Assembly: GCF_013408535.1 (NCBI RefSeq)
Contig: NZ_JACBZA010000001.1
Span: 682,001-746,000, forward strand
DNA length: 64,000 nt
Direction of reading: 5' to 3'
DNA from: Actinopolymorpha cephalotaxi
GTDB lineage: Bacteria; Actinomycetota; Actinomycetes; Propionibacteriales; Actinopolymorphaceae
A program made the position numbers and the translations under genes. Position 1 is the first letter of the stretch, and every line of letters starts with the position of its first letter. Below are positions 10,157 through 41,436 of the stretch, piece after piece. The notes under the pieces are model-generated. The model was not told where the DNA came from and did no database searches. It worked only from the letters and a program-made list of their open reading frames with translations.

Positions 10157-10190
10157 CTAGGTCACCTTCCATGGAGCTGCAAAGTTGTTC

Positions 10191-25063: not shown

Positions 25064-28000
25064 CCGACCGACTGTCCGCCACCCAGCTCGCGCTGCCGCT
25101 GGTCCGCGCCGACGGTGTCCGCTACACCGCCGTCGACCTGGCCCGGCTGTTGCGGCAGCACCCGCCGACCGCCGAACAGGCCGCGGTGATCCAGGCGCCG
25201 CTGGAGCCGGGCGTGATCGTCGCCGGCGCCGGTTCGGGCAAGACCGAGACGATGGCCGCCCGGGTCGTGTGGCTGGTCGCCAACGGGCTGGTGCTGCCCG
25301 AGCAGGTGCTCGGCCTCACGTTCACCCGCAAGGCGGCACGGGAGTTGTCGGCCCGCATCCGGCATCGGCTCGGCCAGCTGAGGGCCCGCGGTCACGTCAG
25401 CGTGGAAGCCGACGGGGACGCACCGCCCGGCGAGGTCAACGTCGCCACCTACGACGCCTACGCCCAGCGCATCGTGTCCGAACACGCGTTGCGGCTCGGG
25501 CGCGAGCCGGCCTCACGGCTGGTCACCCCGGCCACCGCCTGGCAGTACGCCACCCGGGTGGTGGAGACCTACGACGGGCCGATGGACGCGGTGGAGGCGG
25601 CGTTCTCCACCGTGGTCGACGCTGTCCTCGCCCTGCACGGCGAGATGAGCGGCCACCTGGTGACGGCCAGGCAGATCGCCGACTTCACCGCCGACCTGGT
25701 GGCCACCGTGACCAGCAAGCCCGCGGTCGCGCGCACCCGCAAGGCGCTGTACAGCAACGTCGCGGAGGCACTCGCCCGCCAGCAGGCACGGGTCGCCCTG
25801 CTGCCGCTGGTGCAGGCGTTCGAGGCGGAGAAACGCAAGCGGGAAGCGGTGGACTTCGCCGACCAGGCCGCGCTGGCCGCCCAGCTGGCCGAGGGTTTCG
25901 AGGAGGTCGGTGAGCGGGAACGCGAGCGCTACCCGATCGTGTTGCTGGACGAGTACCAGGACACCAGCCATGCCCAGCTGGCGATGCTGCGCGGGCTCTT
26001 CGGTGACGGCACCGGCCACCCGGTCACCGCCGTCGGCGACCCGTGCCAGTCCATCTACGGCTGGCGGGGCGCCAGCGCCGCGACGCTGGCGTCGTTCGGC
26101 AGCCACTTCCGCACCTCCGGCGGTGCGTCCGCGCCGACCCGCTCGCTCACCACCAGCTTCCGCAACGGCTCCTCGGTCCTCGCGGTGGCCAACGTCCTGG
26201 CCACGCCGCTGCGTCAGGGCGGCCTCGACGTACGAGAGTTGGCCGCGCATCCGGCCAACCCGAAGGGCCGGGTCGTGGTGTCGCTGCACCACACCGTGGA
26301 GGACGAGGCGGCCGACGTCGCGGTCCGCGCGCGGACGGTGTGGGACGCCGACGCGGACAACCGCGCCAAGGGGAAGCCGGGACGTACGGTCGCGGTGCTG
26401 GTCCGGCGCCGCAGCCAGATCGACCGGCTGGCCCACGCGTTGCGCGATGCCGGGTTGCCGGTGGAGGTGGTCGGCGTCGGCGGCCTGCTGTCGGCGCCCG
26501 CGGTCACCGACGTGGTGGCGACCCTGCGGGTGCTCGCCGACCCGGGCCGCGGCGACGCGCTGATGCGGCTGCTCACCGGGGCCAGGTGGCGGATCGGCCC
26601 ACGTGACCTGGACGCCCTCGGCCGGTGGGCTCGCCGGCTGGCCGCCGCCCCCGGGCTGTCCGGCGCCGGATCGAGTGGATCGGAGGGCTCGGAAGGAACG
26701 GGTGGAACGGACGGAGCCGGATCGGCCGAGCCAACAGCGTCAGCAGGGTCGGCAGCGTCAGCAGGGTCGGCAGAGTCAATGGGGTCGGCAGGGTCAACGG
26801 GGTCGGCCGGGTCGGACGAGCAGGCCGAGCCCGACGACGTGGACAACGCCAGCATCATCGACGCCCTGGACGCGGTGGACACCGCACCCGCAGACGGCTG
26901 GTTCTCACCGGAGGGGCGCCGGCGGCTCACGCTGTTCGCCCACGAGCTGCGATCGCTGCGCCGGCGGGCCGCACAGCCGCTGGTCGACCTGGTGGCCGAC
27001 GTCGTACGCACTCTCGGACTGGACGTGGAGATCGCCGCCCGTACCGGCGACGTGGCGGTGAGCCGGGCGGACCTGGACGCCTTCCTCGACGTCGCCGTCG
27101 GGTTCGCCGAGAGCGGCGAGGGCGTCTCGGTGGCGGCGTTCCTCGCCTACCTCGACGCGGCCGACACCGAGGAACGCGGCCTGGAGCCCGGGCAGGTGGA
27201 GGTCGCCGAGGAACGCGTCCAGGTACTCACCGTGCACGGTGCGAAGGGTCTGGAGTGGGACGTCGTGTTCGTACCCGGCCTGGTGGAGGGCGTCTTCCCG
27301 ACCGCCGGCGCGAAGGACAAGGCCTGGCTGACCGACCTGGGCGCGCTGCCGTTCCCGCTCCGCGGAGACCGGGACGCACTCCCGGTGCTCGACGTCGAGC
27401 ACACGCTGGACCAGAAGGAGGTCAAGGAGGCGTTCGACCAGTTCGTCGAGGACTGTGGCGAGCGTGCCCGGATCGAGGAACGCCGGCTCGCCTACGTCGC
27501 GGTCACCCGCGCGCGGCAGTTCCTGGTCTGCTCCGGCTACCGCTGGGACGAGACCCAACGGCCGCGGGAGCCGGGGGAGTACCTCCTGGAGATCGCCGAC
27601 GCCTGCCGCGCCGGTGCCGGCAAGGTCGGCATCTGGCACGGTGAGGTCGACCTGGAGGCGGGGAACCCGCTGACCGCACAGCCACGCCGGCACGCGTGGC
27701 CCTACGACCCGCTCACCTCGCGGCGCCGCACCGAGCTGGAGGTGGGAGCCGAGCTCGTCCGCCGGTCCAAGGCCGAGCTCGAGGCCGAGCGTGAGCTTCC
27801 CACGGAGGTGGCGCAGGCGGCCCTGGAATGGCAGCGGGACGTCGACCTGCTGCTCACCGAACGAGCCCGCCGGGTGAACCGCGACGAGATCGTCGTCACC
27901 CTGCCCGACCGGATGTCGGTGAGCCAGTTGGTGCAGTTGAAGCGCGAGCCGGAGGCGCTGGCGCGGTCGATCCGCCGGCCGGTCCCGCACGCGCCCAATC

Positions 28001-28557
28001 CGCTGGCCCGGCGGGGCACCGCGTTCCACGCCTGGCTGGAGTCGCGGTACGGCCTGCAGCAGTTGCTCGACATCGACGAGCTGCCCGGTTCGGCCGACGC
28101 GGAGGCCGAACCCGACGACGACCTCATCGCGTTGCAGGAGGCGTTCCTCGCCTCGGAGTGGGCCGACCGTGAGCCGCTCGAGGTCGAGGTGCCGTTCGAG
28201 CTTCTGGTCGGCGGCGTGGTCGTTCGCGGTCGCGCCGACGCCGTGTTCCCGGTCAGAGGCGGCGGCTCACCCGGGTCGGTGACCGCGGTCGTCGGCGGCC
28301 GGTCGGTCACCGCGATCGAGGTGGTCGACTGGAAGACCGGGCGACCGCCACGAGACGCAGAGGACGAGGCCGCCCGCACGGTGCAGTTGGCCGCGTACCG
28401 GCTGGCGTGGGCCCGGCTGACCGGGTTGCCGCTGGAGCAGGTGCGGGCCGCGTTCCACTACGTACGCCACAACCGGACCGTCCGGCCCGTCGACCTGCTC
28501 GACGCCGAGGGCCTGGAGGCACTCATCGCCGGTGTCCCCGAAGAGGACGGCGACTGA
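25060..28557 (+). CDS. adnB: AdnB: helicase-nuclease subunit
   Basis: The second AdnAB subunit, 1165 residues. Walker A is AGAGSGKTE (about 54-62), motif II LDEYQDTS (about 295), then GDPCQSIYGWRGA, LTVHGAKGLEWD and YVAVTRARQF. The nuclease domain has RGTAFHAWLE, RGRADAVF and EVVDWKTG (about 1087); it lacks the Fe-S cysteines seen in AdnA. A Gly/Ser-rich insert of about 60 residues (roughly 532-595) interrupts helicase domain 2. In mycobacteria the two motors and two nucleases work together on broken DNA ends. The GTG start overlaps the adnA stop, so expression is coupled. Confidence 0.93.
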   Translation: MTDRLSATQLALPLVRADGVRYTAVDLARLLRQHPPTAEQAAVIQAPLEPGVIVAGAGSGKTETMAARVVWLVANGLVLPEQVLGLTFTRKAARELSARIRHRLGQLRARGHVSVEADGDAPPGEVNVATYDAYAQRIVSEHALRLGREPASRLVTPATAWQYATRVVETYDGPMDAVEAAFSTVVDAVLALHGEMSGHLVTARQIADFTADLVATVTSKPAVARTRKALYSNVAEALARQQARVALLPLVQAFEAEKRKREAVDFADQAALAAQLAEGFEEVGERERERYPIVLLDEYQDTSHAQLAMLRGLFGDGTGHPVTAVGDPCQSIYGWRGASAATLASFGSHFRTSGGASAPTRSLTTSFRNGSSVLAVANVLATPLRQGGLDVRELAAHPANPKGRVVVSLHHTVEDEAADVAVRARTVWDADADNRAKGKPGRTVAVLVRRRSQIDRLAHALRDAGLPVEVVGVGGLLSAPAVTDVVATLRVLADPGRGDALMRLLTGARWRIGPRDLDALGRWARRLAAAPGLSGAGSSGSEGSEGTGGTDGAGSAEPTASAGSAASAGSAESMGSAGSTGSAGSDEQAEPDDVDNASIIDALDAVDTAPADGWFSPEGRRRLTLFAHELRSLRRRAAQPLVDLVADVVRTLGLDVEIAARTGDVAVSRADLDAFLDVAVGFAESGEGVSVAAFLAYLDAADTEERGLEPGQVEVAEERVQVLTVHGAKGLEWDVVFVPGLVEGVFPTAGAKDKAWLTDLGALPFPLRGDRDALPVLDVEHTLDQKEVKEAFDQFVEDCGERARIEERRLAYVAVTRARQFLVCSGYRWDETQRPREPGEYLLEIADACRAGAGKVGIWHGEVDLEAGNPLTAQPRRHAWPYDPLTSRRRTELEVGAELVRRSKAELEAERELPTEVAQAALEWQRDVDLLLTERARRVNRDEIVVTLPDRMSVSQLVQLKREPEALARSIRRPVPHAPNPLARRGTAFHAWLESRYGLQQLLDIDELPGSADAEAEPDDDLIALQEAFLASEWADREPLEVEVPFELLVGGVVVRGRADAVFPVRGGGSPGSVTAVVGGRSVTAIEVVDWKTGRPPRDAEDEAARTVQLAAYRLAWARLTGLPLEQVRAAFHYVRHNRTVRPVDLLDAEGLEALIAGVPEEDGD

Positions 28558-28623: not shown

Positions 28624-29577
28624 TCAGCCGGCGGTCGGCGCCGCCCACAGCCGGTCCGGGCCGATTCGGTAGAAGTCGCACGCGGTGCCGAAGAACACCG
28701 CGCGTTGTTCGCTCGCCGACAGGTCGGCGGTGAGGTCCTGGAAGCCGCCGAAGATCTGCGCGTACGTCGCCCACAGTGCGTCCACCGGGAAGTTGCTCGC
28801 GAACATGCACCGCTGCGGGCCGAACAGCTCGAGGGTGGTGAGCACCACCTCCCGCTGCAGGTCCGGTGTCCAGGTGGTGTGTGGAACCCCCAACCCGGAG
28901 ATCTTGCAGTACACGTTGGGGTTTCGCGCCACCAGTCGCATCGCGTTCCGCCAACCGGCCAGTCCGGGTAGTGACCGGTCGGCCGGCAACCCGGTGTGGT
29001 TGAGGACGATCCGGGTGCGGTCGAACTCCGCCGCGAGGTCGGCCGCCTCGTGCAGGTGCCACCACGGGACCTGCAGTTCGTAGTGCAGGCCGAGCGGCGC
29101 CAACCTCGCGAACCCTTCCCGCCAGCGCGGGTCGGTCATCGACGTGGGTTCGGACCGCGCCCGGTCCGGGGTGGGCGCGCCGCCGGGCTTGTGCCGGATC
29201 CCGCGGGTCAGCGGCGCGGCGGCGACCGCCGCCAGGTGTTCGGCGACGTCGGGTGCGTCCAGCACCGCGTGCCCGACGACCACGCTGGGCACGCCCGTCT
29301 TCTCCGCCAGCCCGCTCACCCAGGCGATCTCCGACAGCGTGTCGTCGACCCGCCACTCCGTCTCCACGAAGACGCTGCCCACCACGTCGAGCCCGCGGCC
29401 GGCGACGGTGGCGACGTCGGCGCGGAAGTCGGCCGGCAGGTAATCGCGCCGGATGCGCCCGTAGTCGCCGTACCGGAACGCGATCATCGGTTCCTCGACC
29501 AGCCACGGCTGCCCGCCCAGGCCGAGGTCCCACACGTGGTGGTGCGCGTCGACGACGGGACCGGTGTAGGGGCTCAT
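28624..29577 (-). CDS. Amidohydrolase-2 family protein (lactonase-like)
   Basis: A TIM-barrel metal-dependent hydrolase of the amidohydrolase-2 (PF04909) type. It shows VVDAHHHVWDLG at the N-terminus, then VETEWRVD, RGIRHKPGG, VLNHTGLP and MFASNFPVD. HHHxWD plus a late NFPVD resemble fuconolactonase and 2-pyrone-4,6-dicarboxylate lactonase relatives, so a lactone or cyclic acid substrate is plausible. The ATG at 29577 fits the family; another lies at 29607. It is divergent from a LacI gene, with a perfect 16-bp palindrome between them, and is probably co-regulated with the transport operon. Confidence 0.88.
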   Translation of the reverse strand: MSPYTGPVVDAHHHVWDLGLGGQPWLVEEPMIAFRYGDYGRIRRDYLPADFRADVATVAGRGLDVVGSVFVETEWRVDDTLSEIAWVSGLAEKTGVPSVVVGHAVLDAPDVAEHLAAVAAAPLTRGIRHKPGGAPTPDRARSEPTSMTDPRWREGFARLAPLGLHYELQVPWWHLHEAADLAAEFDRTRIVLNHTGLPADRSLPGLAGWRNAMRLVARNPNVYCKISGLGVPHTTWTPDLQREVVLTTLELFGPQRCMFASNFPVDALWATYAQIFGGFQDLTADLSASEQRAVFFGTACDFYRIGPDRLWAAPTAG

Positions 29578-29637
29578 CGCGGCCGCGTCGTCGAATGGCG
29601 AACGCATTTCGGCATGGCCATATTCGACCGCGCGGAA

Positions 29638-29653: not shown

Positions 29654-29845
29654 CGTTGCCGGTTTCCAGACGGCCGAATACGGCTGAACTTTCAGTGTTC
29701 TCTTCACTTGTCGAAATGAGTGCGAAAGTGCTTGCCCGACTCCTGTCCACGACAGGACAGGGGCGTTCCCCGCTACGGACATGTGCACGTAACGTCCACG
29801 CAGACAGGGATCTGCCGAATGTTCAGTGAAACGCGAGGAGTGCGG

Positions 29846-31000
29846 ATGGGGGCACGGCGGCGGTCGACACTGCGCGAGGTCGCTGCGCGTGCCGGTGTTT
29901 CGATCGGCACTGCCTCGGGTGTCTTCACCAGCAATGCGTCCGTTTCCGAACAGGCCCGCACAGCGGTGCTGGCGGCCGCGGAGGAAATCGGCTACCAACC
30001 GCGCCGGCGGCCGGCGGACACTCTCGCCGCGGGCGTTTCGGCGTTCGGCCTGCTGGCCCGTGGTGAGCACTACGTCGGGCCGGCAAACCCCTTCTACGGC
30101 CCGGTTCTCTACGGCGCCCAGTCGGCGATCGCGGCGCTCGGGGTGTCGTTGGTGATGGAAACCCTGCACGACGGCGACCTCGACGGCCGCGGGCTTCCGC
30201 TGGTGCTGCGCCGCCGGCAGGCGCAGGGGCTGCTGCTGGCGGGTTACCACGAACACCGCTACGTCGCGAGGTTGCTGGAGACCGGGACACCCTGCGTGCT
30301 GATCGACCATCTGGTCGAGGACCTGCCGGTGGACTGCGTACGCGCCGACGACCATCGTGGCGGCTACCTGGCCACCACCCACCTGCTCGACCTGGGGCAC
30401 CGCGACCCGCCACCGGCCATCATCACCGGGCCGTCGACGGCGTACTCCATCACCGCGCGGCTGGCCGGATATCACCGGGCGCTGGCGGAGTACGGCGTCC
30501 CTGCCGACCCCGCCTACGTCCGCGGGGGCCGGTTGTGCGCGGAGAGCGGGCGGGAGGAGATGGCCGCGCTGCTGGACCTGCCGGTGCCGCCGACCGCGGT
30601 CTTCTGCGGCAACGACAACACCGCCCTCGGCGCGATCGACCTGCTCCGCGAACGAGGAATCGCCGTGCCCACGGACGTCTCGGTGATCGGGTACGACGAC
30701 ATCGCGATGGCCGCGCACAGCGTTCCCGGGCTCACCACCATCGCCGTCGACAAGGAACTGCTCGGCATGCAGGCGGTGTGGAACCTCACCGAGCGGCTGC
30801 GCTTTCCGCACATGGGCTGGCGGGAGACCCGGGTCGGCGTGCACCTGGTGGTCCGCGGATCCACCGCACCACGCAACCCTCCCGCACCGCCACACGAGCC
30901 GGTCCGGCGGTCCCGGCCGGCCACCACGACCTCGGCCACCACGAACCTCACCACCTCGGCGACCTCAACCACCTCCACGACCTCAACCACACAAGGGTGA
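29846..31000 (+). CDS. LacI-family transcriptional regulator
   Basis: The helix-turn-helix reads STLREVAARAGVSIGTASGVF. The hinge region and periplasmic-binding-like domain follow, with NDNTALGAIDLLRERGI and VSVIGYDDIAMAAHSVPGLT, conserved in the family. The ATG at 29846 has GAGGAG just upstream; an ATG at 29819 would add nine residues. The last ~25 residues are an unusual Thr/Ser-rich tail with no family counterpart. The stop is 7 bp before the dioxygenase gene, so the regulator heads the transport operon and probably represses it until a sugar-like ligand is present. Confidence 0.93.
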   Translation: MGARRRSTLREVAARAGVSIGTASGVFTSNASVSEQARTAVLAAAEEIGYQPRRRPADTLAAGVSAFGLLARGEHYVGPANPFYGPVLYGAQSAIAALGVSLVMETLHDGDLDGRGLPLVLRRRQAQGLLLAGYHEHRYVARLLETGTPCVLIDHLVEDLPVDCVRADDHRGGYLATTHLLDLGHRDPPPAIITGPSTAYSITARLAGYHRALAEYGVPADPAYVRGGRLCAESGREEMAALLDLPVPPTAVFCGNDNTALGAIDLLRERGIAVPTDVSVIGYDDIAMAAHSVPGLTTIAVDKELLGMQAVWNLTERLRFPHMGWRETRVGVHLVVRGSTAPRNPPAPPHEPVRRSRPATTTSATTNLTTSATSTTSTTSTTQG

Positions 31001-31007
31001 TCGACAG

Positions 31008-31775
31008 ATGCGGCTGACCACGGCCGACAAACAGGCGTTGTACGACGACGGTCTCGTCCGCCTGCCCGGGATCGTTCCCAGCGAGCTTGTCAACGCGGCC
31101 TTGCGAGCGATCAACGGATCCCTCGGTTCCGAGGGCATCCATCCCGACGAGCTGGTGACCTTCCGGTCCCGGTCCTACACCCCCGAACTGCAGACCTCGC
31201 CGGCCATCACCGACCTGCTGTACCGGTCCCCGCTGTGGGAGGTCGCGGAGTCCGCGATCGGGGAGGGCGCGATCACGCCGGTGAACGGCGGTCAGATCGC
31301 GTTGCGCTTCCCCACCCCGGACGCGCCACACGACCCGCACGCCCACATCGACGGCATGTACAGCCCGCACAACGGTGTGCCCAAGGGGACGATCGCCAAC
31401 TTCACCGCACTGGTGGGGGTGTTCCTCAGCGACGTACCCACGCCGTACGCCGGGAACTTCACCGTCTGGCCGGGAAGCCACCGCCGGTACGAGAGCTACT
31501 TCCGCGAGCACGGCCCGGACTCCCTGCTAAACGGTATGCCGGACGTGGAGGTGGCCGAGCCGGTGCAGGTCACCGCCCGGGCCGGTGACGCGGTGCTGGC
31601 CCACTACCAGCTCGGGCACGGCATCGCCGGCAACGCCTCCCCGCACATCAGGTATGCGATCTTCTTCCGGCTCAGTCACGTCGACCACCAGTCGGTGCGC
31701 TGGGAGTGCATGACCGACATCTGGCGGGAGTGGGCGGGGATGCGCGACGTGGCGGCGGACGCGCCGGCCACCTGA
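31008..31775 (+). CDS. PhyH-type Fe(II)/2-oxoglutarate dioxygenase
   Basis: A 255-residue member of the phytanoyl-CoA dioxygenase superfamily. The iron-binding HxD is in HAHIDGMYS (about residues 111-115) and the distal His and 2-oxoglutarate-binding Arg in LGHGIAGN...HIRYAIFFR (about 203-223). FTVWPGSHRRY is the conserved product-side block. It begins 7 bp after the LacI gene. Members hydroxylate varied small molecules, so the substrate may be the compound imported by this operon. That link is inference. Confidence 0.9.
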   Translation: MRLTTADKQALYDDGLVRLPGIVPSELVNAALRAINGSLGSEGIHPDELVTFRSRSYTPELQTSPAITDLLYRSPLWEVAESAIGEGAITPVNGGQIALRFPTPDAPHDPHAHIDGMYSPHNGVPKGTIANFTALVGVFLSDVPTPYAGNFTVWPGSHRRYESYFREHGPDSLLNGMPDVEVAEPVQVTARAGDAVLAHYQLGHGIAGNASPHIRYAIFFRLSHVDHQSVRWECMTDIWREWAGMRDVAADAPAT

Positions 31776-31810
31776 CCCCGACCGATCCGTCTACCTACAA
31801 GGCGAGCCGA

Positions 31811-31846
31811 CTCGCCAACCGATCCGCCAACCGAATCGCCAACCGA
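31811..31846. repeat. Three 12-bp repeats ahead of the first ATPase
   Basis: Near-identical 12-bp units around TCGCCAACCGAT follow one another in the 116-bp gap between the dioxygenase and the first MalK-type gene. Confidence 0.85.
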
Positions 31847-31891
31847 CAAAGCGATCCGACCCGCGAACTGATCCCGGAAGGAGTGGTTGCC

Positions 31892-32998
31892 GTGCCCACC
31901 CTGGAGGTACGCGGCCTGGTGAAGCAGCTCGGTGACCACCGGGCGGTCGACGGCATGTCGTTCACGGTCGAGGACGGGCAGTTCTTCGTACTCCTCGGCC
32001 CGTCCGGCTGCGGCAAGACGACCACCCTGCGGATCGTCTGCGGGCTGGAGCATCCCGACGCGGGCGAGGTCGTCATCGGTGGCCGGGACGTGACCTCGCT
32101 GCCCTCGCGCGACCGCAACCTCGGGATGGTCTTCCAGGAGTACGGCCTCTACCCGAGCATGGACGTCTTCGGCAACATGGCGTACGGACTGCAGGCCCGC
32201 GGCGGCGTGGCCAAGGACGAGATCGAACGCCGCATCCGGGCGGCCGCGGACCGGCTCGACCTCGGCCCGCTGCTGAGCTCGCCGATCACCGACCTGTCCG
32301 GCGGCGAGCAGCAGCGGGTGGCGCTCGGCCGGGCGATGGTGAAGGACGCCGACGCGTACCTCTTCGACGAGCCGCTGTCCAACCTGGACCCGAAGCTGAG
32401 GTACCGGCTGCGCCGCGACATTCTCGCCCTGCACCGCGACAAGGGCCGCCCGAGCGTCTACGTCACCCACGACCAGACCGAGGCGTTCGCGATGGGCGAC
32501 GTGGTGGCGGTGCTGGCCAACGGCCGGGTACAGCAGATCGGCCCGCCGGACGAGCTGGCCGAACGCCCCGCCAACGTGTTCGTCGCCGGCTTCGTCGGCT
32601 CCCCGCCGATGAACCTGCTGCCCGCCCGGCTGCGGCCGGTGAACGGCGCGTACGTCGCGCACGGGCCGGACGGATCAGACACGGCCCTCCCGCTGCCGCC
32701 GGCGTGGAGCGACACGCTGTCGCGGTACGGCAAGGAGCAAGTGACGGTGGGCATCCGCCCCGACGCGCTGGTGCCGGCCGCCGACGGCGACGCGGCCATC
32801 AGCGGCGAGGTCACCGACGTGGAGCCGCTGATCGGGGAGACGGTGGTCCGGCTGCGGACAGCGGGCCGGATGATGGCCGCGATCTTCCGGGCCGGCGAGG
32901 AAGGCTCGCTCGCCCCCGGCGACTCCGTACGCCTCGACGTCGCCCCCGAGGGGCTGCGGCTGTTCGACCACGACAGCGAACAGGCGCTGATGCCATGA
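31892..32998 (+). CDS. MalK/UgpC-type ABC transporter ATPase (first of three)
   Basis: A 368-residue sugar-importer ATPase. Walker A is GPSGCGKTT (about 36-44), the signature LSGGEQQR, Walker B YLFDEPLSNLD and the switch HDQTEA. A C-terminal TOBE-like regulatory domain (about 235-368) follows, as in MalK and UgpC. The GTG at 31892 is preceded by GGAAGGAG. The stop overlaps the GroEL-like gene in an ATGA, so the ATPase and chaperonin-like protein are translationally coupled. Which permease pair it serves is uncertain because two more ATPases lie downstream. Confidence 0.93.
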   Translation: MPTLEVRGLVKQLGDHRAVDGMSFTVEDGQFFVLLGPSGCGKTTTLRIVCGLEHPDAGEVVIGGRDVTSLPSRDRNLGMVFQEYGLYPSMDVFGNMAYGLQARGGVAKDEIERRIRAAADRLDLGPLLSSPITDLSGGEQQRVALGRAMVKDADAYLFDEPLSNLDPKLRYRLRRDILALHRDKGRPSVYVTHDQTEAFAMGDVVAVLANGRVQQIGPPDELAERPANVFVAGFVGSPPMNLLPARLRPVNGAYVAHGPDGSDTALPLPPAWSDTLSRYGKEQVTVGIRPDALVPAADGDAAISGEVTDVEPLIGETVVRLRTAGRMMAAIFRAGEEGSLAPGDSVRLDVAPEGLRLFDHDSEQALMP

Positions 32999-34620
32999 CA
33001 ACCAGGACCACCGCGACTGCATCGGCTGCCGGCCGGGCCGATGGGCTGGCGGCCGGCTTCGACACTCTCGCCCGGCTGCTCGCGCTCACCCTCGGCCCGG
33101 GCCGGGGCGTGGTGCTCAACGACGCCGGCGGCGGGACCGCCGAGGGCCTGGCCGATGCGGCGACCATCGCGCGCCGGGTCACCGCCCTGCCCGAACGCGG
33201 TGCGAACGCGGGCGCCGCGGTGCTGCGTGAGGCGGTACGCACGGTGGTCGCCCGGCACGGCGACGGCGGCGCCACCACCGCGGTGCTGACCGCGGCGATC
33301 GTCCGGCACGCGCGCCGGATGGTGGCCGCCGGCGCCAACCCGGTGCTGGTCCGGGACGGGATCACGGCCGCGGTCCGGTGCGCCGCCGACGAGCTGAAGG
33401 GCCAGGCGAGTCCGGTCACCGGGCGGGACGACCTGGCCGGGCTGGTCGCGGCGGCCGGCGGTGACCGGGCGCTGGCTGCGTCGGTCGGGGAACTGCTGGA
33501 CGTGCTGGGCCCCGACGGGGCGGTCGTGGTGGAGGAGTCCGTACGTACCGGCGTGACGCACGACTACGTGGACGGCAGCCGGTGGCCCGCTCGCCCGGCC
33601 GGGCCCGAGCTGCTGTCCGGCGGTGGCGCGTTCGGCGGTTCGCACACCGAGCTGACCCTGGCCGACCCGGCGGTAGTGGTCGCGGACGTCGTACTCGACG
33701 ACCCGGCGCAGGTCGTCCCGATCCTGGAGGCGGTGCGTGCGCTGCCCGGCCGGCCGCCGCTGCTGCTGGTGGCCCGGGACGTGACCGGCGGCGCAGCCAC
33801 GACGTGCCTGCTGAACGACCGCCGCGGGCTGGTGGTGACCGCGCCGGTCGTCCTCACCACGGCCGGCGTCCGGCAGGGTGAGGACCTCGCCGACCTGGCG
33901 CTGCTGACCGGTGCCACCGTGCTGTCGCCGGAGTCCGGCCGCCCGCCCGAGCGGTTCGTCCCGGCGTACGCCGGCCGGTCGCGGCGCGCCGTCGTGCGGT
34001 CCGGTCAGCTGTCCGTCGCCGGCGGTGCCGGCGACCGGGGCACGCTCGTCGAACTGGCCGCTCGGCTGCGGACCCGGGCCTGGGAGCTCGGCGACGGCGC
34101 GGAGGCGACCACGCGTACCGCCGACCGGATGTGGCTGCGTCAGGCGCGTCTGCTCGGCCGGGTCGGTGCGGTCAAGGTGGGTGCGGACACCGAGGCCGAA
34201 CGCGAGGACCGGCTGCGGACCGCCCGCCGGGCCGTGCGGCTCGCCCGGACCGCGCTGCGGGACGGTGTGGTGGCCGGCGGCGGGGTGGCCTATCTGGACT
34301 GCGTTGATGCCGTACGCACGGCGCGGGCGCACTGCACCGACTCCGACCGTGCCGCCGGCATGGACGCGGTGGCGGCCGCCCTGGAGACGCCGTTCCTGCG
34401 GATGGTCGCCAACGCCGGCCGCCGCGAACCCCGGGTGGCACTGGCCGCGGTTCGCGCGCTCGGGCCCGGCCACGGGATCGACGTACTGACCGATCGGTGC
34501 CTGCCGATGCGAGCGGCCGGGGTGCTCGACGTCGCGGGCGTGGCCGTCGCCGCATTGGAGGCGGCCGGCGCCACCGCCGGTGTCCTGGTGTCGGCATCGG
34601 TGGTGAGCGGCCGTGGGTGA
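32995..34620 (+). CDS. Divergent GroEL-like (cpn60) protein in a transport operon
   Basis: A 541-residue homologue of GroEL spanning the whole chaperonin length. Recognisable blocks: LARLLALTLGPGRGVVLND at the N-terminus, GDGGATTAVL (GroEL has GDGTTTATVL) with Asp90 matching D87, Asp54 matching D52, and VAGGGVAYLD near 427. A gapless hand alignment from KVGADTEAE to AGGG puts Arg412 at GroEL D398, the aspartate needed for ATP hydrolysis. The apical KAPGFGDRRK motif and the GGM tail are also absent. It is unlikely to be the housekeeping chaperonin. It may be a scaffold or a slow ATP-binding chaperone for operon products. It overlaps both neighbours. Confidence 0.88.
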   Translation: MTTRTTATASAAGRADGLAAGFDTLARLLALTLGPGRGVVLNDAGGGTAEGLADAATIARRVTALPERGANAGAAVLREAVRTVVARHGDGGATTAVLTAAIVRHARRMVAAGANPVLVRDGITAAVRCAADELKGQASPVTGRDDLAGLVAAAGGDRALAASVGELLDVLGPDGAVVVEESVRTGVTHDYVDGSRWPARPAGPELLSGGGAFGGSHTELTLADPAVVVADVVLDDPAQVVPILEAVRALPGRPPLLLVARDVTGGAATTCLLNDRRGLVVTAPVVLTTAGVRQGEDLADLALLTGATVLSPESGRPPERFVPAYAGRSRRAVVRSGQLSVAGGAGDRGTLVELAARLRTRAWELGDGAEATTRTADRMWLRQARLLGRVGAVKVGADTEAEREDRLRTARRAVRLARTALRDGVVAGGGVAYLDCVDAVRTARAHCTDSDRAAGMDAVAAALETPFLRMVANAGRREPRVALAAVRALGPGHGIDVLTDRCLPMRAAGVLDVAGVAVAALEAAGATAGVLVSASVVSGRG

Positions 34621-36523
34621 ACCGGCGAGCCCGATCCTGTCCGCCGCGGCGGGTCCCCGGCCGGGAGAACTGTGGCTGGGCGGGGTCGGCGGGGTGGTGT
34701 CCACCGGCACGTCCGGCGAGGCCGGCGCGTCCGGCGCGTCCGGCGGCGCGGCGGCCGGGGTGAACGGTCCGCTGACCTGCGTGGCCGCGCTCGGGACCGT
34801 GGCGGGCCGGCTGCTCGCCGGTGGCGCTGAGGGGATCGCGCGCCGCGGCGCCGGCGGCTGGGACCTCGCCCAGGTGCAGGGGAGCGGCGCCCCCGTGGTG
34901 GCATTCCTCGACGTACGGATGCCCGGAGCTGATGTGGATCCGGCGGGCCCCGGTGAGAGCCGTGAGGACCGCGAGGATCACGACGGCGACGTCGTCCTCG
35001 CGGCCACGCTCGGGGACGGCGTACTCCGCAGCGCCGACGGTGGGCGTACGTGGGAGCCGGTGTTCGGGCTGGCCGACATCGAGGTCACCGCGCTGGCCCG
35101 CACGCCCTGCGGGCGGCTGCTCGCGGGTACGCCGGAGGGCGTCTTCGCCAGCGAGAACGCCGGCCGGGCCTGGCGACCGGCCGGGCACGATCCGGGGCAC
35201 GATCTGCCGGGTTCGGACGAGCAGGTGGCGGCGTTCGCGGTGGCGGCGTTCGCGGTGGCCGCGGACGGCACGGTCGTCGCCGGACTGGAGTCCGGCGACC
35301 TGTGGGGCTCCGCCGACGACGGGCGGACCTGGGCGCCGATCGGCTCGCTCCCGGCGCCGGTCACCGCGCTGGTCGCGACCTCGGCCGGAACCCTGCTCGC
35401 GGGTACGTCCGGCGCGGGGGTGTGGCGGTCCGCCGGTGGCGCCGGCTGGTACGAGACGGCACCGGAGAAGCCGGCAGGGACGGTGTACTGCCTGCTGGCC
35501 GACGGCACGACGACGTACGCCGGCACCGACACCGGCCTGCTGGTCAGCCGCGACGACGGCCGCACCTGGTCCGAGGTCGGCGTGCCCTCCACCGCCGACC
35601 TGGACCGGATGGTCTGGTGGGACGACCGGCCGCTGCTCGCCGGGCCCCGGTCGGGGATCGTCCGTCCGGCCGCCGCGCCGAACGAGTGGCAGTCGCTGCC
35701 GGGAGTGCCGTTTCCCCTGCTGGGGCTGGGAGTCGCGCCCGACGGTGCGCTGCTGGCGTCCGGGCCGGACGGGCTGTTCCGGCGGACGCCGGCCGACGCC
35801 GACTGGACCCCGGTGGTGGAGGGGAGTGTCGGGGAGGTCGGCCGGTTGGCGTTCGCCGCGGACGGGCGCGGCTGGGCGGCGCCGGCCCGGCACGGTGACA
35901 CGCTGCTGCACAGTGCCGACGCCGGGCGTACCTGGAGCCGGCACCCGGCGCCGTTCGGCACCTTCCCGCTCGCCGCGCTGGGCTGGGCCGGGCAGGATGC
36001 ACTCGTGGCGGCGACGTTCGACCACCGGCGCAATCTCGTGACCGTCTTCGACTCCGGCGACGGCGGCCGGACCTGGCGAACGCAGCTCACCGCCGAGACG
36101 GCGTGGCCGGACGTGCACGTCGCCCGCGCCGGCGCCGACGGCCCGGCCGTGCTCGGCATCGGGCGGCTGGTGCTCCGCCGCGATGGCGACGGCGGCTGGG
36201 AACACCTGGCGACCTTCGAGACAGGCGTACGGGCGATGACCGGTACGCCAACCGGCCTGGCCGTCCTCACCGGGGACGGACTCTGGTCGTACGACCTGCC
36301 GACCAGCACCGGCTCGGGGTCCGGCCCGGCACCCGGCCCGGGCACCAGCCGAGTGACCGGCACCGACGGTACCGATGGCACCGACGACACCGGCTGGCGC
36401 CGCGTCGAGGACGCCCCGGACCCGGCGTCGGCGTACGACCTTGCCGGCCGCGGCGACGAGCTCCTCGTCCTGCTCGCGGGCGGCGGCGTGTGGACCTCGA
36501 TTCCGACGAGGAGGGGACGATGA
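34613..36523 (+). CDS. Asp-box beta-propeller protein, no signal peptide
   Basis: A 636-residue repeat protein. At least six Asp-box/BNR units are visible: SADGGRTW, SENAGRAW, SADDGRTW, SRDDGRTW, SADAGRTW and SGDGGRTW, spaced 45-150 residues apart, as in sialidase, sortilin and YCF48-type propellers. LLAGT-like strands recur between them. No signal peptide or membrane helix is seen, so it is probably cytoplasmic, unusual for this fold. Sialidase catalytic arginines were not identified. The GTG at 34613 overlaps the GroEL-like stop by 8 bp. The stop overlaps the solute-binding protein gene in an ATGA. Role unknown; a protein-interaction platform is a guess. Confidence 0.8.
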   Translation: MGEPASPILSAAAGPRPGELWLGGVGGVVSTGTSGEAGASGASGGAAAGVNGPLTCVAALGTVAGRLLAGGAEGIARRGAGGWDLAQVQGSGAPVVAFLDVRMPGADVDPAGPGESREDREDHDGDVVLAATLGDGVLRSADGGRTWEPVFGLADIEVTALARTPCGRLLAGTPEGVFASENAGRAWRPAGHDPGHDLPGSDEQVAAFAVAAFAVAADGTVVAGLESGDLWGSADDGRTWAPIGSLPAPVTALVATSAGTLLAGTSGAGVWRSAGGAGWYETAPEKPAGTVYCLLADGTTTYAGTDTGLLVSRDDGRTWSEVGVPSTADLDRMVWWDDRPLLAGPRSGIVRPAAAPNEWQSLPGVPFPLLGLGVAPDGALLASGPDGLFRRTPADADWTPVVEGSVGEVGRLAFAADGRGWAAPARHGDTLLHSADAGRTWSRHPAPFGTFPLAALGWAGQDALVAATFDHRRNLVTVFDSGDGGRTWRTQLTAETAWPDVHVARAGADGPAVLGIGRLVLRRDGDGGWEHLATFETGVRAMTGTPTGLAVLTGDGLWSYDLPTSTGSGSGPAPGPGTSRVTGTDGTDGTDDTGWRRVEDAPDPASAYDLAGRGDELLVLLAGGGVWTSIPTRRGR

Positions 36524-38199
36524 ACACCGATCCCGCAAGTCCGAGAACGCCCGCGCCGCAAGGATCCGCGGCTGCGCCCACCCGACGGCAGATGCTGTCC
36601 CTGATGGCGTCGGGGACCTTCCTCGCCGCCGGCGGCGGGCTACTGAGCTCGTGCGCGCGCCGGGGTGCCAGCACCGACGGCCATGTCGTACTGAAGACGT
36701 CGGGCGGCTGGCCGTGGGGCCCGATGCCGACGAAGAAGGAACAGAAGGCCAACCCGGGAACGAAGTCCTACGCGGACGTGCTCGGCGCCTGGATGGACAA
36801 GAACCCCGGCGTCACGATCCAGGACGTCAAGCTGGACGTGTGGAACCAGCAGACGCTGTCCACCGCGATCACCGGCGGCACCGCGCCCTCGATGTTCCCC
36901 GGTGACGTGCTCGGCGGCTGGAACCGCCAGGCGGTGCGCGCGGCGATGGCGCAGGGGCTGTCGGCCGACGTGACCGAGCATCTGAAGGCGCACGACATCG
37001 TCGGCAAGCTGGAGACCTACGTCAAGCCCATCTGGGAGAAGTGGCAGGTCGACGGGAAGTTCTACGCCGCGCCGTGGATCTACAACGTCGGGACCGGCCT
37101 GCACTACCGCGTCGACCTGGTTCGCGAACTGGGGCTGAAGGAACCGACGCCGGACTGGACCTGGGACGACGTACGCACCCTCGCCAAGGGCCTCACCGAG
37201 GGCAAGCGCAAGGGAATCGTCCTGCAGGGCTGGGGCCTGAACATGCGGATGAGCGCGGACGGGATGGACTTCCACGGCAAGCTGCCCGCACCGTCGACGA
37301 ACTGGAACTGGCGCTGGGACTACCTGTCCGGCGCGGACCGCTGGGTGCCGCTCATCCAGGGCATGCGGGACATGGTCTACAAGGACAAGAGCGTGCTCGC
37401 CGACGTGAGCATGGGCGACGGCGACACGCTGGCGGCGTTCGTCCGCGGCGACGCCGCGATCCACAACAACACGGTGATCTTCTTCGCCAACACGCCGGGC
37501 AGTGACACCGCACCGGCCGACCTGGCCGCCCGGCTGAAGAAGCCGATGGAGGACGTCGTGGGGTGGATGACCCAGCCGGTAGGCCTGAACGGGCGTACCG
37601 GCACCACCCAGGGACAGGTGGACCTGGTCGGCTTCTCACCCGACATGGACGACCTCGCCCTGGACAAGGCGATCAGCCTGCACGCGTGGATGAAGGGACC
37701 GGGCTGGGTCGAGCAGAAGAAGGCGACGTACGCGGCCACCAAGGATGCCAAGCGGGTCTTCGACGGGGCCGACTTCATGCCGTTGTTCGCCGGGCTGCTG
37801 GAGCAGATGCCGGTCACTCCCGACGACGCGTGGGGCAAGCCGTTCATGGATCAGGTGCGCCGGGCGTCGAAGATCCCGCTGGTGCCGAACGAGGCGTTCT
37901 ACTTCCCTGCGGAGCTCAGCCCCGGGCCGACCGGGACCGCCCGCGACGACATGACGTCGCGGTGGGCGAACGAACGCGGCACCCTCGACCTGCGCGGCGA
38001 CCTGGCGAAGATGCAGGCGACGATGAACGCGCAGGCGGGGAGCTTCTCCTCCAGCACCTCCGACCCGGACTTCGTCAAGGCTGCCCGGGAGTACTTCGGC
38101 GCGCACGACACCTACTGGCGGGACAACGCACCGGACTACCACCGCGACGTCTTCTCGCCGTGGTACCAGAACTCCGTCCTGCCGGCCCTGAAGGGATGA
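36520..38199 (+). CDS. Tat lipoprotein solute-binding protein of sugar ABC transporter
   Basis: A 559-residue family-1-like extracellular solute-binding protein. The N-terminus carries TRRQMLSLMASGTFLAAGGG followed by LLSSC, a twin-arginine signal ending in a lipobox cysteine near residue 45. The mature part has features of carbohydrate binders: FPGDVLGGWNRQAV, YAAPWIYNVGTGLHYR and aromatic-rich WNWRWDYLSGADRW. It should capture substrate outside the cell for the MalF/MalG-like permeases encoded next. At 559 residues it is longer than the usual 400-450, suggesting an oligosaccharide-type site; this is inference. Confidence 0.92.
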   Translation: MNTDPASPRTPAPQGSAAAPTRRQMLSLMASGTFLAAGGGLLSSCARRGASTDGHVVLKTSGGWPWGPMPTKKEQKANPGTKSYADVLGAWMDKNPGVTIQDVKLDVWNQQTLSTAITGGTAPSMFPGDVLGGWNRQAVRAAMAQGLSADVTEHLKAHDIVGKLETYVKPIWEKWQVDGKFYAAPWIYNVGTGLHYRVDLVRELGLKEPTPDWTWDDVRTLAKGLTEGKRKGIVLQGWGLNMRMSADGMDFHGKLPAPSTNWNWRWDYLSGADRWVPLIQGMRDMVYKDKSVLADVSMGDGDTLAAFVRGDAAIHNNTVIFFANTPGSDTAPADLAARLKKPMEDVVGWMTQPVGLNGRTGTTQGQVDLVGFSPDMDDLALDKAISLHAWMKGPGWVEQKKATYAATKDAKRVFDGADFMPLFAGLLEQMPVTPDDAWGKPFMDQVRRASKIPLVPNEAFYFPAELSPGPTGTARDDMTSRWANERGTLDLRGDLAKMQATMNAQAGSFSSSTSDPDFVKAAREYFGAHDTYWRDNAPDYHRDVFSPWYQNSVLPALKG

Positions 38200-38208
38200 G
38201 CGGCACCG

Positions 38209-39246
38209 ATGACTGGTGAACGAGTGATTCCCGGGGCCGCGGGCTCCGGCCAGAACTCCGGCGACGACCGGAACTCTCCAGGTACGCGGGGCGCGGCGCC
38301 GACCGCGGCGCCGACCGCGGTGACCGAACCTCCCGGCACCGCGACTTCCCAAGCCACGCAGGGAAAGAGCACCGTGGCGGCGCCCAGGCTGAGCCGCCGG
38401 CGCCGGCTGGAGGGTGCGCTGTTCGTCGCGCCGGCGTTCCTCTTCCAGCTGTCGTGGGGGTGGTACCCCCTGTTGATGGCGTTCGTCATCAGCTTCACCA
38501 ACGCCCGCTTCCGCGGCCCGGTGGAGTTCACCGGGCTGACCAGCTACCTGCGGATGTGGCGGGACCCGCTGGTCGGCGAGGCGTTCAAGGTCACCGCGAT
38601 CTACACGGTGCTGAGCCTCGGGCTGACGTTCATGATCCCGGTGGTGGTGGCGATCCTGCTGATGGAGATGCCGCGCCGGCACATCCGCTGGATGATGCTG
38701 CTGTGGTTCCTGCCGTTGTCGGGAATCGCCAGCACGCTGTTGTTCCGGTACATGTTCAACGCGCAGTACGGCCTGTTCCAGTGGGTGGCCACCGAGGTCC
38801 TGCACCTGTCGCCGCAGCCGTTCCTCAACAGCGGCAACCAGGTGCTGTTCTGGCTGGTCTTCCCCGGCATCCTGTTCTTCGGGCCCGGGCTGATCTACAT
38901 GGCAACCCTGCAGGGGATTCCGGCCTCCTACTACGAGGCGGCCGAGATCGAGGGCGCGGGCTTCTGGCGCAAGATCTGGACCATCTCGCTGCCCCGGCTG
39001 CGACCCGTCATCTCGATGTTGCTGATCTTCGCGGTGATCGGATCCTCACAGGCGTTCGAGTTTCCGCTGATCATGACCGGCGGCGGGCCGGGCGGTGCCA
39101 GCCGCACCGTCGTCATGTATCTCTACGAGCTCATGCGCAGCCTGCGCTACGCCGACGCGACCGCACTCGGCGTCTTCCTCTTCGTGGTGACGATGGTGCT
39201 GGTCGTCATCCAGCGCAGGTTCTTCCGCGAGGACCCCGACCAGTAG
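38209..39246 (+). CDS. Sugar ABC transporter permease (MalF-like)
   Basis: A 345-residue inner-membrane permease. After a hydrophilic Ala/Thr/Gly-rich N-terminal tail of about 60 residues come six or so helices, beginning LEGALFVAPAFLFQLSWGW. The EAA loop that docks with the ATPase reads YYEAAEIEGAGFWRKIWTI (about 240-258). The long polar tail is not needed for the fold and may be cytoplasmic. It starts 10 bp after the solute-binding protein gene. Confidence 0.93.
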   Translation: MTGERVIPGAAGSGQNSGDDRNSPGTRGAAPTAAPTAVTEPPGTATSQATQGKSTVAAPRLSRRRRLEGALFVAPAFLFQLSWGWYPLLMAFVISFTNARFRGPVEFTGLTSYLRMWRDPLVGEAFKVTAIYTVLSLGLTFMIPVVVAILLMEMPRRHIRWMMLLWFLPLSGIASTLLFRYMFNAQYGLFQWVATEVLHLSPQPFLNSGNQVLFWLVFPGILFFGPGLIYMATLQGIPASYYEAAEIEGAGFWRKIWTISLPRLRPVISMLLIFAVIGSSQAFEFPLIMTGGGPGGASRTVVMYLYELMRSLRYADATALGVFLFVVTMVLVVIQRRFFREDPDQ

Positions 39247-39282: not shown

Positions 39283-40308
39283 ATGCTCTTCCCACGCGTG
39301 GGGCGTAAGCAGCCGATGCTGCGGATCGCCTGGTGGCTGGTCGTGGCGTTCCTGTGCCTCGGCATCACCCTGCACCTGTTTCCCTTCTATTTCATGGCGA
39401 TCACGTCGTTCAAGTCCGGCCAGGAGGTGCTGCAGTTCCCGCCGACCTGGTGGCCGCACGACGGGACCCTGGCCGGCTGGCGGCTGGTGGTGAGCCTGGT
39501 CCAGGGCAGCAACACCGCCGCGACGACCCTGATGGACGGGCCGTTCTGGCAGTTCTTCCTGAACTCGGTGAACATCACCTTCTGGGTGCTGGTGCTCGGC
39601 ATTCCGATCACCTCGCTGGCGGCGTACGCCAACTCCAAGTTGCAGACGGGTCCCCTTGCCCGCTGGTCGTTCCTGTTCTTCATCGGCACGCTGATGATGC
39701 CGGCGGCGCTCACCCTGATCCCCAACTACCTGCTGACCCGCAACTTCCCGTTCGCCCTTCCGGACGCGCCGTCGTTCTTCGGCAGCGACACCCTCGTCTG
39801 GCCCAACGTCCGGATCTGGGACACCCACTGGGCGGTGATCCTGCCGATCGTGTTCCAGGCATTCAACTTCCTTCTTTTCAAGGGGTTCTTCGACACGATC
39901 CCGAACTCCGTGATCCAGGCGGCCCGAGTGGACGGCGGTTCGGAGTTCAACATCTTCCGCCGGATCGTGCTGCCGATGAGTGTGCCGGTGTACGCCGTGG
40001 CGATCTGGGGTGCGTTCAGCGGCGCCTGGGACCAGTTCCTGTGGCCGCTGGTGGTGTTGCAGAGTCCGGACAAGATGCCGGCCTCGGTGGAGATCTACAA
40101 CCTGTTGCAGAAGTTCACCCAGGCGGGCGCGACGGACGCCAACCAGGCCAGCGCGGCGGCCCAGCAGATGCAGCAGATCCTGTCCGCCGGCATGTCGTGG
40201 AACGGCCTGATGGTGCTCGGCATCCTGCAGTCGCTGCCGGTGTTCATCGCGTTCATCGTCTGCCGTGAGTACCTGCTGCGCGGCATCCGCCTGCGCGGCC
40301 TGAAGTGA
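39283..40308 (+). CDS. Sugar ABC transporter permease (MalG-like)
   Basis: A 341-residue permease with six helices and a large extracytoplasmic loop containing LVQGSNTAATTLMDGPFWQF. The EAA-type loop is FDTIPNSVIQAARVDGG (about 205-221). It ends CREYLLRGIRLRGLK, typical of MalG-type subunits. The ATG at 39283 follows GTAGGAGG. It pairs with the preceding MalF-like subunit. The next gene, an ATPase, begins 10 bp later. Confidence 0.93.
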   Translation: MLFPRVGRKQPMLRIAWWLVVAFLCLGITLHLFPFYFMAITSFKSGQEVLQFPPTWWPHDGTLAGWRLVVSLVQGSNTAATTLMDGPFWQFFLNSVNITFWVLVLGIPITSLAAYANSKLQTGPLARWSFLFFIGTLMMPAALTLIPNYLLTRNFPFALPDAPSFFGSDTLVWPNVRIWDTHWAVILPIVFQAFNFLLFKGFFDTIPNSVIQAARVDGGSEFNIFRRIVLPMSVPVYAVAIWGAFSGAWDQFLWPLVVLQSPDKMPASVEIYNLLQKFTQAGATDANQASAAAQQMQQILSAGMSWNGLMVLGILQSLPVFIAFIVCREYLLRGIRLRGLK

Positions 40309-40317
40309 GGATGGCCG

Positions 40318-41436
40318 ATGGCGTCGATCGAGATCGAGCAGGTACGCAAGCGCTACCAGGCCGAGCAGGTGGTCGACCCGCACGGCGGGGGCCGGCCGGC
40401 CCTGGACGGGGTGAGCCTGTCCCTCGCCGAGGGTGAGACGGTCAGCGTGGTGGGCTCGTCCGGCTGTGGCAAGTCCACCCTGCTCAAGGTGGTCGCGGGG
40501 CTCGAGTACCCCGAGTCCGGCCGCGTCCTCTACAACGGCCAGGACGTCACCTACGTACGCCCGCAGGAACGCGGTGTGGGCATGGTGTTCCAGGACTACG
40601 CGCTCTACCCGTCGATGAAGGGGAAGGGCAACCTGGCCTACTACTTCGAGGTGCACGACCGCACCGAGGAGGAGGCCGAGCAGCGCACCCGGGAGACCGC
40701 CGAGCGGATGGGGATCGGCTTCGAGCAGTTGCTCGGCCGGGTGCCCGACACCCTGTCCGGCGGCGAGCAGCAGCGGGTGGCGATCGGGCGGTGCATCGTC
40801 CGGGAACCCCAGCTGTTCCTGATGGACGAGCCGATCTCCAACCTGGACGCCAAGCTGCGCGAACGCACCCGGGTGGAGATCCGCAAACTGCTGCGGAAGT
40901 TCGCGATCACCACGTTGTACGTCACCCACGACCAGCAGGAGGCCATCTTCATGGGCGACCGGATCGCGGTGATGCGCGACGGCCGGATCGAGCAGGTCGG
41001 CACGTTCGACGAGCTGTACTCCACCCCGGCCAACCTGTTCGTGGCGACGTTCGTCGGCGCCCCGCCGATGGCGGTGATCCCGGCGGCGATCGACGCGGGC
41101 CGGGTCACCGTGCCCGGAGGCGCCTGGCAGCTGCCGGACAATCTCGCCGGGTCGTTGCCGACCGGGCCGGTGCGGGTCGGCGTACGCCCGGAGGGGTGGC
41201 TGCTGGACACCGCCGACGGCGCGCCGCTGCGGGTGCGGCACCGCGAGCGGATCCCCACCGAGCGGGCGAGTTTCCTGTACGGCCGGCTGGGCGAGGCCAA
41301 CGTCGCGGTGACCGCGCCCGTCGACTACCCCGACCGGTCCGAGGTGGCGATCACCCCGGACTGGGAGCGGGCGTACGTGTTCGCCGCCGACGGAGAGGAG
41401 CCGCACCATGTCCCCGGGGTACTCGAACTGTTCTGA
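40318..41436 (+). CDS. MalK/UgpC-type ABC transporter ATPase (second of three)
   Basis: A 372-residue sugar-importer ATPase. Walker A GSSGCGKST, signature LSGGEQQR, Walker B LFLMDEPISNLD and switch HDQQEA are all intact. The C-terminal TOBE-like domain (about 240-372) contains GVRPEGWLLD. It lies directly after the two permeases. It differs clearly in sequence from the first and third copies, so the three are not recent duplicates. It is perhaps half of a heterodimeric motor with the next gene. Confidence 0.93.
   Translation: MASIEIEQVRKRYQAEQVVDPHGGGRPALDGVSLSLAEGETVSVVGSSGCGKSTLLKVVAGLEYPESGRVLYNGQDVTYVRPQERGVGMVFQDYALYPSMKGKGNLAYYFEVHDRTEEEAEQRTRETAERMGIGFEQLLGRVPDTLSGGEQQRVAIGRCIVREPQLFLMDEPISNLDAKLRERTRVEIRKLLRKFAITTLYVTHDQQEAIFMGDRIAVMRDGRIEQVGTFDELYSTPANLFVATFVGAPPMAVIPAAIDAGRVTVPGGAWQLPDNLAGSLPTGPVRVGVRPEGWLLDTADGAPLRVRHRERIPTERASFLYGRLGEANVAVTAPVDYPDRSEVAITPDWERAYVFAADGEEPHHVPGVLELF

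Follow-up and report, generated by a model that had tools for sequence, protein, structure and literature searches.

Why should a chaperonin gene be tied by overlapping reading frames to a transport ATPase on one side and a beta-propeller on the other? The question is raised by a locus of Actinopolymorpha cephalotaxi lying in a 64,000-nucleotide stretch (hereafter the window; positions 682001-746000 of a single-contig genome of 6.86 Mb), which encodes, in this order, a LacI regulator, a PhyH-type enzyme, an ATP-binding cassette (ABC) ATPase (ATPase1), a GroEL-like protein, an Asp-box propeller, a solute-binding protein (SBP), permease 1, permease 2, ATPase2, ATPase3 and a small membrane protein. 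We tentatively favor, at somewhat less than an even chance, the explanation that the GroEL-like protein is a non-hydrolyzing chaperonin that would hold or scaffold its partner propeller and would have been recruited to a sugar-type importer. The protein is a specialized chaperonin whose partner, setting and gene set we found described nowhere in the open-access literature searched (most subscription journals lay outside the search), in line with the initial annotation, which knew of no described system with this set.

A chaperonin-propeller pair kept through three gene orders

Names beginning with L or G denote stretches and genomes of relatives that we fetched, and we refer to 18 loci as the clade: the window, L011-L016, L051-L053, L061, L087 and L136-L141. 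They come from Actinomycetota and Chloroflexota, and in each the GroEL-like gene is followed, among the genes of the set, by the propeller. The complete set of nine (chaperonin, propeller, SBP, membrane protein, two permeases and three ATPases) is seen in 14; the four incomplete loci either end at a stretch or contig edge (L015, L139, L140) or have the SBP and permeases on another contig (L087). The genes come in three orders. ATPase1, chaperonin and propeller stand ahead of the SBP in seven loci (window, L011-L015, L051) and behind the membrane protein in five (L016, L052, L053, L061, L087). In the third order (six loci, L136-L141), the chaperonin and propeller stand behind the permeases and membrane protein, the SBP and permeases lie between the ATPases and the chaperonin, and ATPase1, in those stretches long enough to show it, is grouped with ATPase2 and ATPase3. 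The set survives reshuffling, which mere neighborhood would not predict, and the adjacency kept in 18/18 loci through three orders supports the view that the chaperonin would act as a holder of the propeller. An independent case in its favor is L111, from the L061 genome, where a distant chaperonin-propeller pair stands immediately downstream of another SBP with two permeases.

Within the window, the genes follow one another closely. The initial annotation had reported a MalK-type ATPase, the GroEL-like protein, the propeller and the SBP in overlapping succession, and its coordinates are correct: ATPase1 and the GroEL-like gene share 4 bp (ATGA), the GroEL-like gene and the propeller 8 bp, and the propeller and the SBP 4 bp (ATGA). 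The first of these overlaps recurs in 5/5 other Actinopolymorpha loci fetched and the second in those five loci as well as in L016 and L051; in Jiangella, the two measure 8 bp and 4 bp, respectively. On the + strand, ATPase1 occupies 31892-32998 (GTG start), the GroEL-like gene 32995-34620 (541 aa), the propeller 34613-36523 (636 aa), whose GTG start lies inside the GroEL-like gene, and the SBP 36520-38199. A frameshift, an annotation artifact or chance is ruled out, because the reading frames are open and their overlaps are conserved among relatives. A consensus scan of 31600-38300, itself weak evidence, gave neither a sigma-70-like site nor a + strand terminator.

As in MalFGK-type importers, the accompanying genes encode a LacI regulator, an SBP, a pair of permeases and ATPases of MalK type; three distinct ATPases, the membrane protein and the chaperonin-propeller pair set the locus apart from such importers. 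The LacI regulator (29831-31000, all of these genes being on the + strand) matches Pfam LacI and Peripla_BP_3, and L011-L015, L051 and L061 have hits as well. The PhyH-type enzyme (31008-31775; PhyH 28.5 bits, cut-off 22) recurs in L011-L015 and in none of the other 12 clade stretches. ATPase1 matches ABC_tran, OB_MalK and TOBE_2, the propeller BNR/Asp-box at 36.3 bits (cut-off 27) and the SBP SBP_bac_8 at 37.8 bits (cut-off 27). With BPD_transp_1, permease 1 (38209-39246) scores 21.0 bits, under the cut-off of 26.4, and permease 2 (39283-40308) 38.9 bits; ATPase2 (40318-41436) matches ABC_tran at 118.9 bits, and ATPase3 (41509-42708) matches ABC_tran and OB_MalK. The small membrane protein (42620-43393, with an uncertain start) has five TM-like segments. 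The LacI gene is flanked by the PhyH gene and by an Amidohydro_2 enzyme (28624-29607) that also occurs in L011-L014 but not in the L015 stretch, and these two enzymes may hint at the substrate. Between the PhyH gene and ATPase1, positions 31813-31846 hold about 2.8 copies of a 12-bp repeat (CGCCAACCGAAC), and farther upstream a long open reading frame (24061-28557), helicase-like by eye, has a Gly/Ser/Ala-rich repeat stretch in its middle. By eye, the SBP N-terminus has a twin-arginine plus lipobox-like appearance. A permease 1 orthologue is present in 17/18 clade stretches, that of L087 lying in the same genome on L060, and a homologue of the membrane protein, which has no Pfam or NCBIfam match, is likewise found in 17/18, L015 ending before it. 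Walker A, signature, Walker B and H-loop are intact for the three ATPases in all 19 sequences aligned, which rules out the third ATPase as a degenerate copy, and three distinct intact ABC ATPases accompany each permease pair wherever the stretch shows the full set. Three intact ATPases for two permeases are unusual.

The distribution of the set is patchy. Among 293 genomes of the same order, the GroEL-like protein occurs in seven at E <= 1e-75 (the window's genome, five congeners and one member of a different family). At the level of the class, a profile search of 394 genomes detected the chaperonin at 467 bits or more in four (the window's genome again, G427, G470 and G486), the next score being at most 331 bits. 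A propeller profile, run on 296 genomes of the class, gave four matches at E <= 1e-25 in the same four genomes, and an SBP profile matched 2/148 genomes at E <= 1e-60, both of them chaperonin carriers; this agreement between separate scans, with the SBP confined to carriers, further supports a chaperonin devoted to the propeller. Across 396 genomes of the phylum Actinomycetota, only the window's own genome matched at E <= 1e-105. More distantly related, three carriers belong to Phytoactinopolyspora endophytica, Jiangella endophytica and J. aurantiaca, and the chaperonin and propeller genes of A. rutila are DNA-identical to those of the same-genus genome G022.

An SBP scan of named GTDB contigs gave eight loci, two of them from Anaerolineae (Chloroflexota) metagenome-assembled genomes. 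L061 encodes LacI, SBP, permeases 1 and 2, ATPase2, ATPase3, membrane protein, ATPase1, GroEL-like protein and propeller; L060 carries the SBP and permeases, and L087, from the same genome, carries ATPase2, ATPase3, membrane protein, ATPase1, GroEL-like protein and propeller. Divergent chaperonins were found in 17/249 genomes of the Chloroflexota class scan (E <= 1e-122), both Anaerolineae carriers included, and matches in 23/151 genomes of the Chloroflexota phylum scan (E <= 1e-112), among them the genome of L061. In six of those 23 genomes, scoring 531-546 bits, the set occurs in its third order; 16 others score under the clade, and of the three that we examined, L142 is canonical and L143 and L144 are divergent. 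The patchy distribution over two phyla suggests horizontal transfer. In the third order, a tryptophan-halogenase-family flavoprotein follows the propeller (L136 12159-13865, by Pfam, with similar open reading frames in L137-L141), and another adjoins the SBP of L060 (2-1252). Sugar-processing genes (GH31, GH4, GH38, transaldolase and isomerase types) lie near several Chloroflexota relatives, where some of the neighbors are annotated.

Elsewhere in Chloroflexota, the association is looser. Eleven fetched loci have the pair but no importer operon that we recognize in the stretch (pair-only loci: L088, L089, L090, L091, L093, L097, L099, L101, L102, L112 and L144); an ABC-ATPase-like hit lies nearby in L089 and L097, and several of these contigs are short. 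In eight others (L092, L094, L095, L096, L098, L100, L114 and L143), no propeller adjoins the chaperonin, and four of the eight (L092, L094, L098 and L100) lie near different permease or SBP genes. Across the six genomes of L092, L094, L095, L096, L098 and L100, the highest propeller scores are 74-154 bits, as against 201-255 bits for the propellers adjoining the chaperonin in eight pair loci. Adjacent propellers can score lower, however (97 bits in L111, 65 in L112 and 36 in the contig-cut L102), so that a partner in those six genomes may have gone unrecognized, and the thresholds of the Chloroflexota chaperonin scans undercount pairs. The pair thus extends beyond its tie to this importer.

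Divergence of the chaperonin and its propeller

The GroEL-like protein matches Pfam Cpn60_TCP1 (PF00118) at 92.3 bits (cut-off 34.3), and its alignment to solved chaperonins spans residues 16-536 (phmmer). Its 241 bits with the GroEL equivalog model (TIGR02348) fall short of the 582.1 cut-off, it also stays under the threshold for each GroEL subfamily model with a match, and the best CCT/thermosome model gives only 26.5 bits; by score, the protein is not a GroEL. Identity to the genome's two other GroELs, both canonical in the tree, is 34% and 31%, and against one of them amounts to 35% in the equatorial, 31% in the intermediate and 28% in the apical domain, on domain bounds that we assumed. 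In a second tree, midpoint-rooted, with long branches for L100, L111, L112 and L114 and with seven close relatives left out, 12 importer-linked sequences form one group (100/100) and 11 canonical sequences another (100/100). A housekeeping GroEL relocated into the operon is ruled out by the two canonical GroELs elsewhere, by the cut-offs and by the residues described below. No groES adjoins the GroEL-like gene, and there is no room for one, because both neighbors overlap it.

For residue comparisons, we aligned 37 divergent sequences to 11 GroELs of the canonical or monooxygenase-linked kind, using what we take to be E. coli GroEL numbering, transferred via the motif spacing of the same-genome canonical GroEL; counts for the clade cover 17 sequences, with L051 (Phytoactinopolyspora) omitted, a run of N (10160-10173) lying inside its chaperonin gene. 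Asp398 is retained in 11/11 canonical and monooxygenase-linked sequences and changed in 34/37 divergent ones (17 Lys, 6 Arg, 5 Glu, 2 Asn, 2 Gln, 1 Ala, 1 His); it is Arg, Lys or Asn in all 17 readable clade members, and Arg in the window protein. The three divergent sequences that retain it (L100, L143 and L144) branch close to the canonical group, partly at weak support. T89 and T90, which follow GDG, are also lost in 17/17. The clade keeps T30, G32, P33, G86, D87, G88, G414, G415 and D495 (motifs TLGP, GDG and GGG), with pocket variation at L31 (Tyr in two Jiangella) and D52 (Asp, but Glu in L014). Apical Y199 is Pro or Ile in 17/17 members; the apical positions are presumably those with which GroEL binds unfolded chains, and their alteration in the clade argues against a general folding cage, though the pair-only group keeps some of them. 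The Gly-Met tail is missing, the window protein ending in VSGRG, and many divergent Chloroflexota chaperonins (L088-L102) end in a short HRxPxxSxEP-type tail, also without Gly-Met. According to one study (PMC3813556), GroEL requires Asp398 for ATP hydrolysis; in the D398A mutant, ATPase activity is ~2% of the wild-type level and the release of unfolded protein is slowed. The replacement of Asp398, read against this mutant, supports a loss of hydrolysis in the clade and speaks against the GroEL-like folding machine that the initial annotation had entertained.

The propeller contains six Asp-boxes by a relaxed pattern and five by a strict one, as against a mean of 0.24 in 300 shuffles (relaxed). 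Profile searches of the PDB place it with GH74-type xyloglucanases (best), Ycf48/HCF136 and sortilin, the Ycf48 and HCF136 entries being titled photosystem II assembly factors. It scores 95.5 against the NCBIfam glycosylhydrolase model F510_1955 (cut-off 175), which the partner propeller of L090 exceeds at 214.7, and 26.4 bits against the Ycf48 model (cut-off 326). Its N-terminal part may be the core, because lengths vary from 308 to 662 aa among 17 propellers measured and the L111 version has 307 aa. R139, R185, W187, R188 and E226 are among the positions conserved in the 14 importer-linked and nine pair-only propellers compared. No classical signal peptide is evident at the N-terminus, and the propeller is probably cytoplasmic, a placement drawn from N-termini because hydropathy gave no separation between propellers and SBPs.

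Compared with three close relatives, dN/dS comes to 0.17-0.28 for the chaperonin, 0.43-0.58 for the propeller, 0.12-0.18 for the SBP and about 0.09 for ATPase1; two more distant relatives give, in the same order, 0.33-0.44, 0.49-0.59, 0.22-0.38 and 0.16-0.27. The chaperonin is under purifying selection, if less constrained than the SBP and the ATPase, and the propeller is under looser constraint. For 24 chaperonin-propeller pairs, the distances of the two proteins correlate at r = 0.97 (0.74 among distant pairs), with none of 2000 permutations reaching as high; joint inheritance by itself could produce this.

What the pair may do

On the reading that we tentatively favor, the GroEL-like protein would have given up ATP hydrolysis while keeping much of its nucleotide pocket, and would hold or scaffold a single client, the neighboring propeller, instead of serving as a general folding cage. 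In this clade, the pair would serve the importer of its own operon, most likely by helping the cytoplasmic ATPases to assemble or dock. The conserved set, its reshuffled orders, the lost Asp398, the pocket motifs, co-divergence and purifying selection are observations; a physical complex, rings, the absence of hydrolysis and an action on the importer are inferences. A eukaryotic parallel involves BBS7, a protein with a propeller. BBS6, BBS10 and BBS12, chaperonin-like proteins of which BBS6 and BBS12 have a diverged ATP-hydrolysis motif, stabilize BBS7 (PMC5534436), and CCT reportedly is needed to fold Gbeta and other WD40 proteins (PMC8544692). The BBS proteins belong to the group II lineage, whereas the bacterial protein scores far higher with GroEL than with CCT/thermosome models, and the resemblance lies in the loss of the hydrolysis motif.

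Other observations weigh against this reading. Neither the propeller nor the importer is an obligatory companion across the family, as the pair-only loci and the loci without an adjacent propeller show; co-divergence may reflect joint inheritance; and the fast evolution and variable length of the propeller would be odd in a tight scaffold. Three divergent sequences keep Asp398, and the pair-only group keeps some apical substrate-binding positions. The idea of the initial annotation that the pair is dedicated to the uptake system holds for this clade only: the scattering that it named as a refutation is seen in the wider family but not here. Its remark that GroEL homologues normally sit alone or with groES overlooks monooxygenase operons, which have a groEL of their own.

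An ordinary dedicated foldase, an ATP-driven chaperonin that folds the products of its operon, seems unlikely. Catabolic operons with such a groEL exist, a co-expressed chaperonin-like gene was reported to be needed for the activity of several monooxygenases (PMC11057499), and much of the nucleotide pocket is retained here. Against it, Asp398, T89 and T90 are lost in 17/17 clade sequences, whereas the two monooxygenase-linked GroELs fetched, L103 and L104, keep Asp398 and T89-T91 and fall within the canonical group (100/100). Monooxygenase genes surround those two, with no propeller or importer annotated in the stretch shown; the neighbors of the window gene are transporter genes, not diiron monooxygenase genes.

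It is also rather unlikely, though less so, that the propeller is an intracellular glycosidase for the imported sugar, with the chaperonin as its folding helper in a catabolic operon. The matches to GH74-type xyloglucanases and to F510_1955 and the sugar-processing genes near several relatives favor this. Among acidic positions outside the Asp-boxes that are conserved in the 14 importer-linked propellers, however, E226 alone is also invariant in the nine pair-only ones; D329 and D470 belong to the importer clade, and D609 is Asp in 4/9. Ycf48, HCF136 and sortilin, which match as well, are not enzymes.

A subunit that mixes into the canonical GroEL rings of the cell, slowing or redirecting them, is less likely still. 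Two canonical GroELs are encoded in the genome, and the equatorial domain is the best conserved part, but identity to them is low (31-34%) and the constant propeller partner would go unexplained. Passive co-inheritance on a mobile sugar-uptake island is similarly unlikely: the patchy occurrence in two phyla is in its favor, whereas the adjacency kept through three layouts and the second, distant pair beside another importer in L111 speak against it. An anti-phage system has no support, PADLOC giving no match to the four proteins submitted.

A bolder reading, which we consider unlikely, is a new kind of bacterial protein machine: a chaperonin that binds ATP without burning it would form a lasting cage or ring, plugged or capped by the propeller in place of GroES, as a structural or regulatory platform and, in this clade, as an ATP-sensing module controlling an importer with three ATPases. 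Chaperonins are known mainly as ATP-driven folding cages. A clade in two phyla that lost the hydrolytic residue, stayed under purifying selection and keeps a propeller beside it would be a natural bacterial instance of a chaperonin re-used as holder or scaffold, in a two-gene system simple to purify; it would open the eukaryotic BBS arrangement to tests by analogy and point to an undescribed assembly or regulation of a sugar-type importer.

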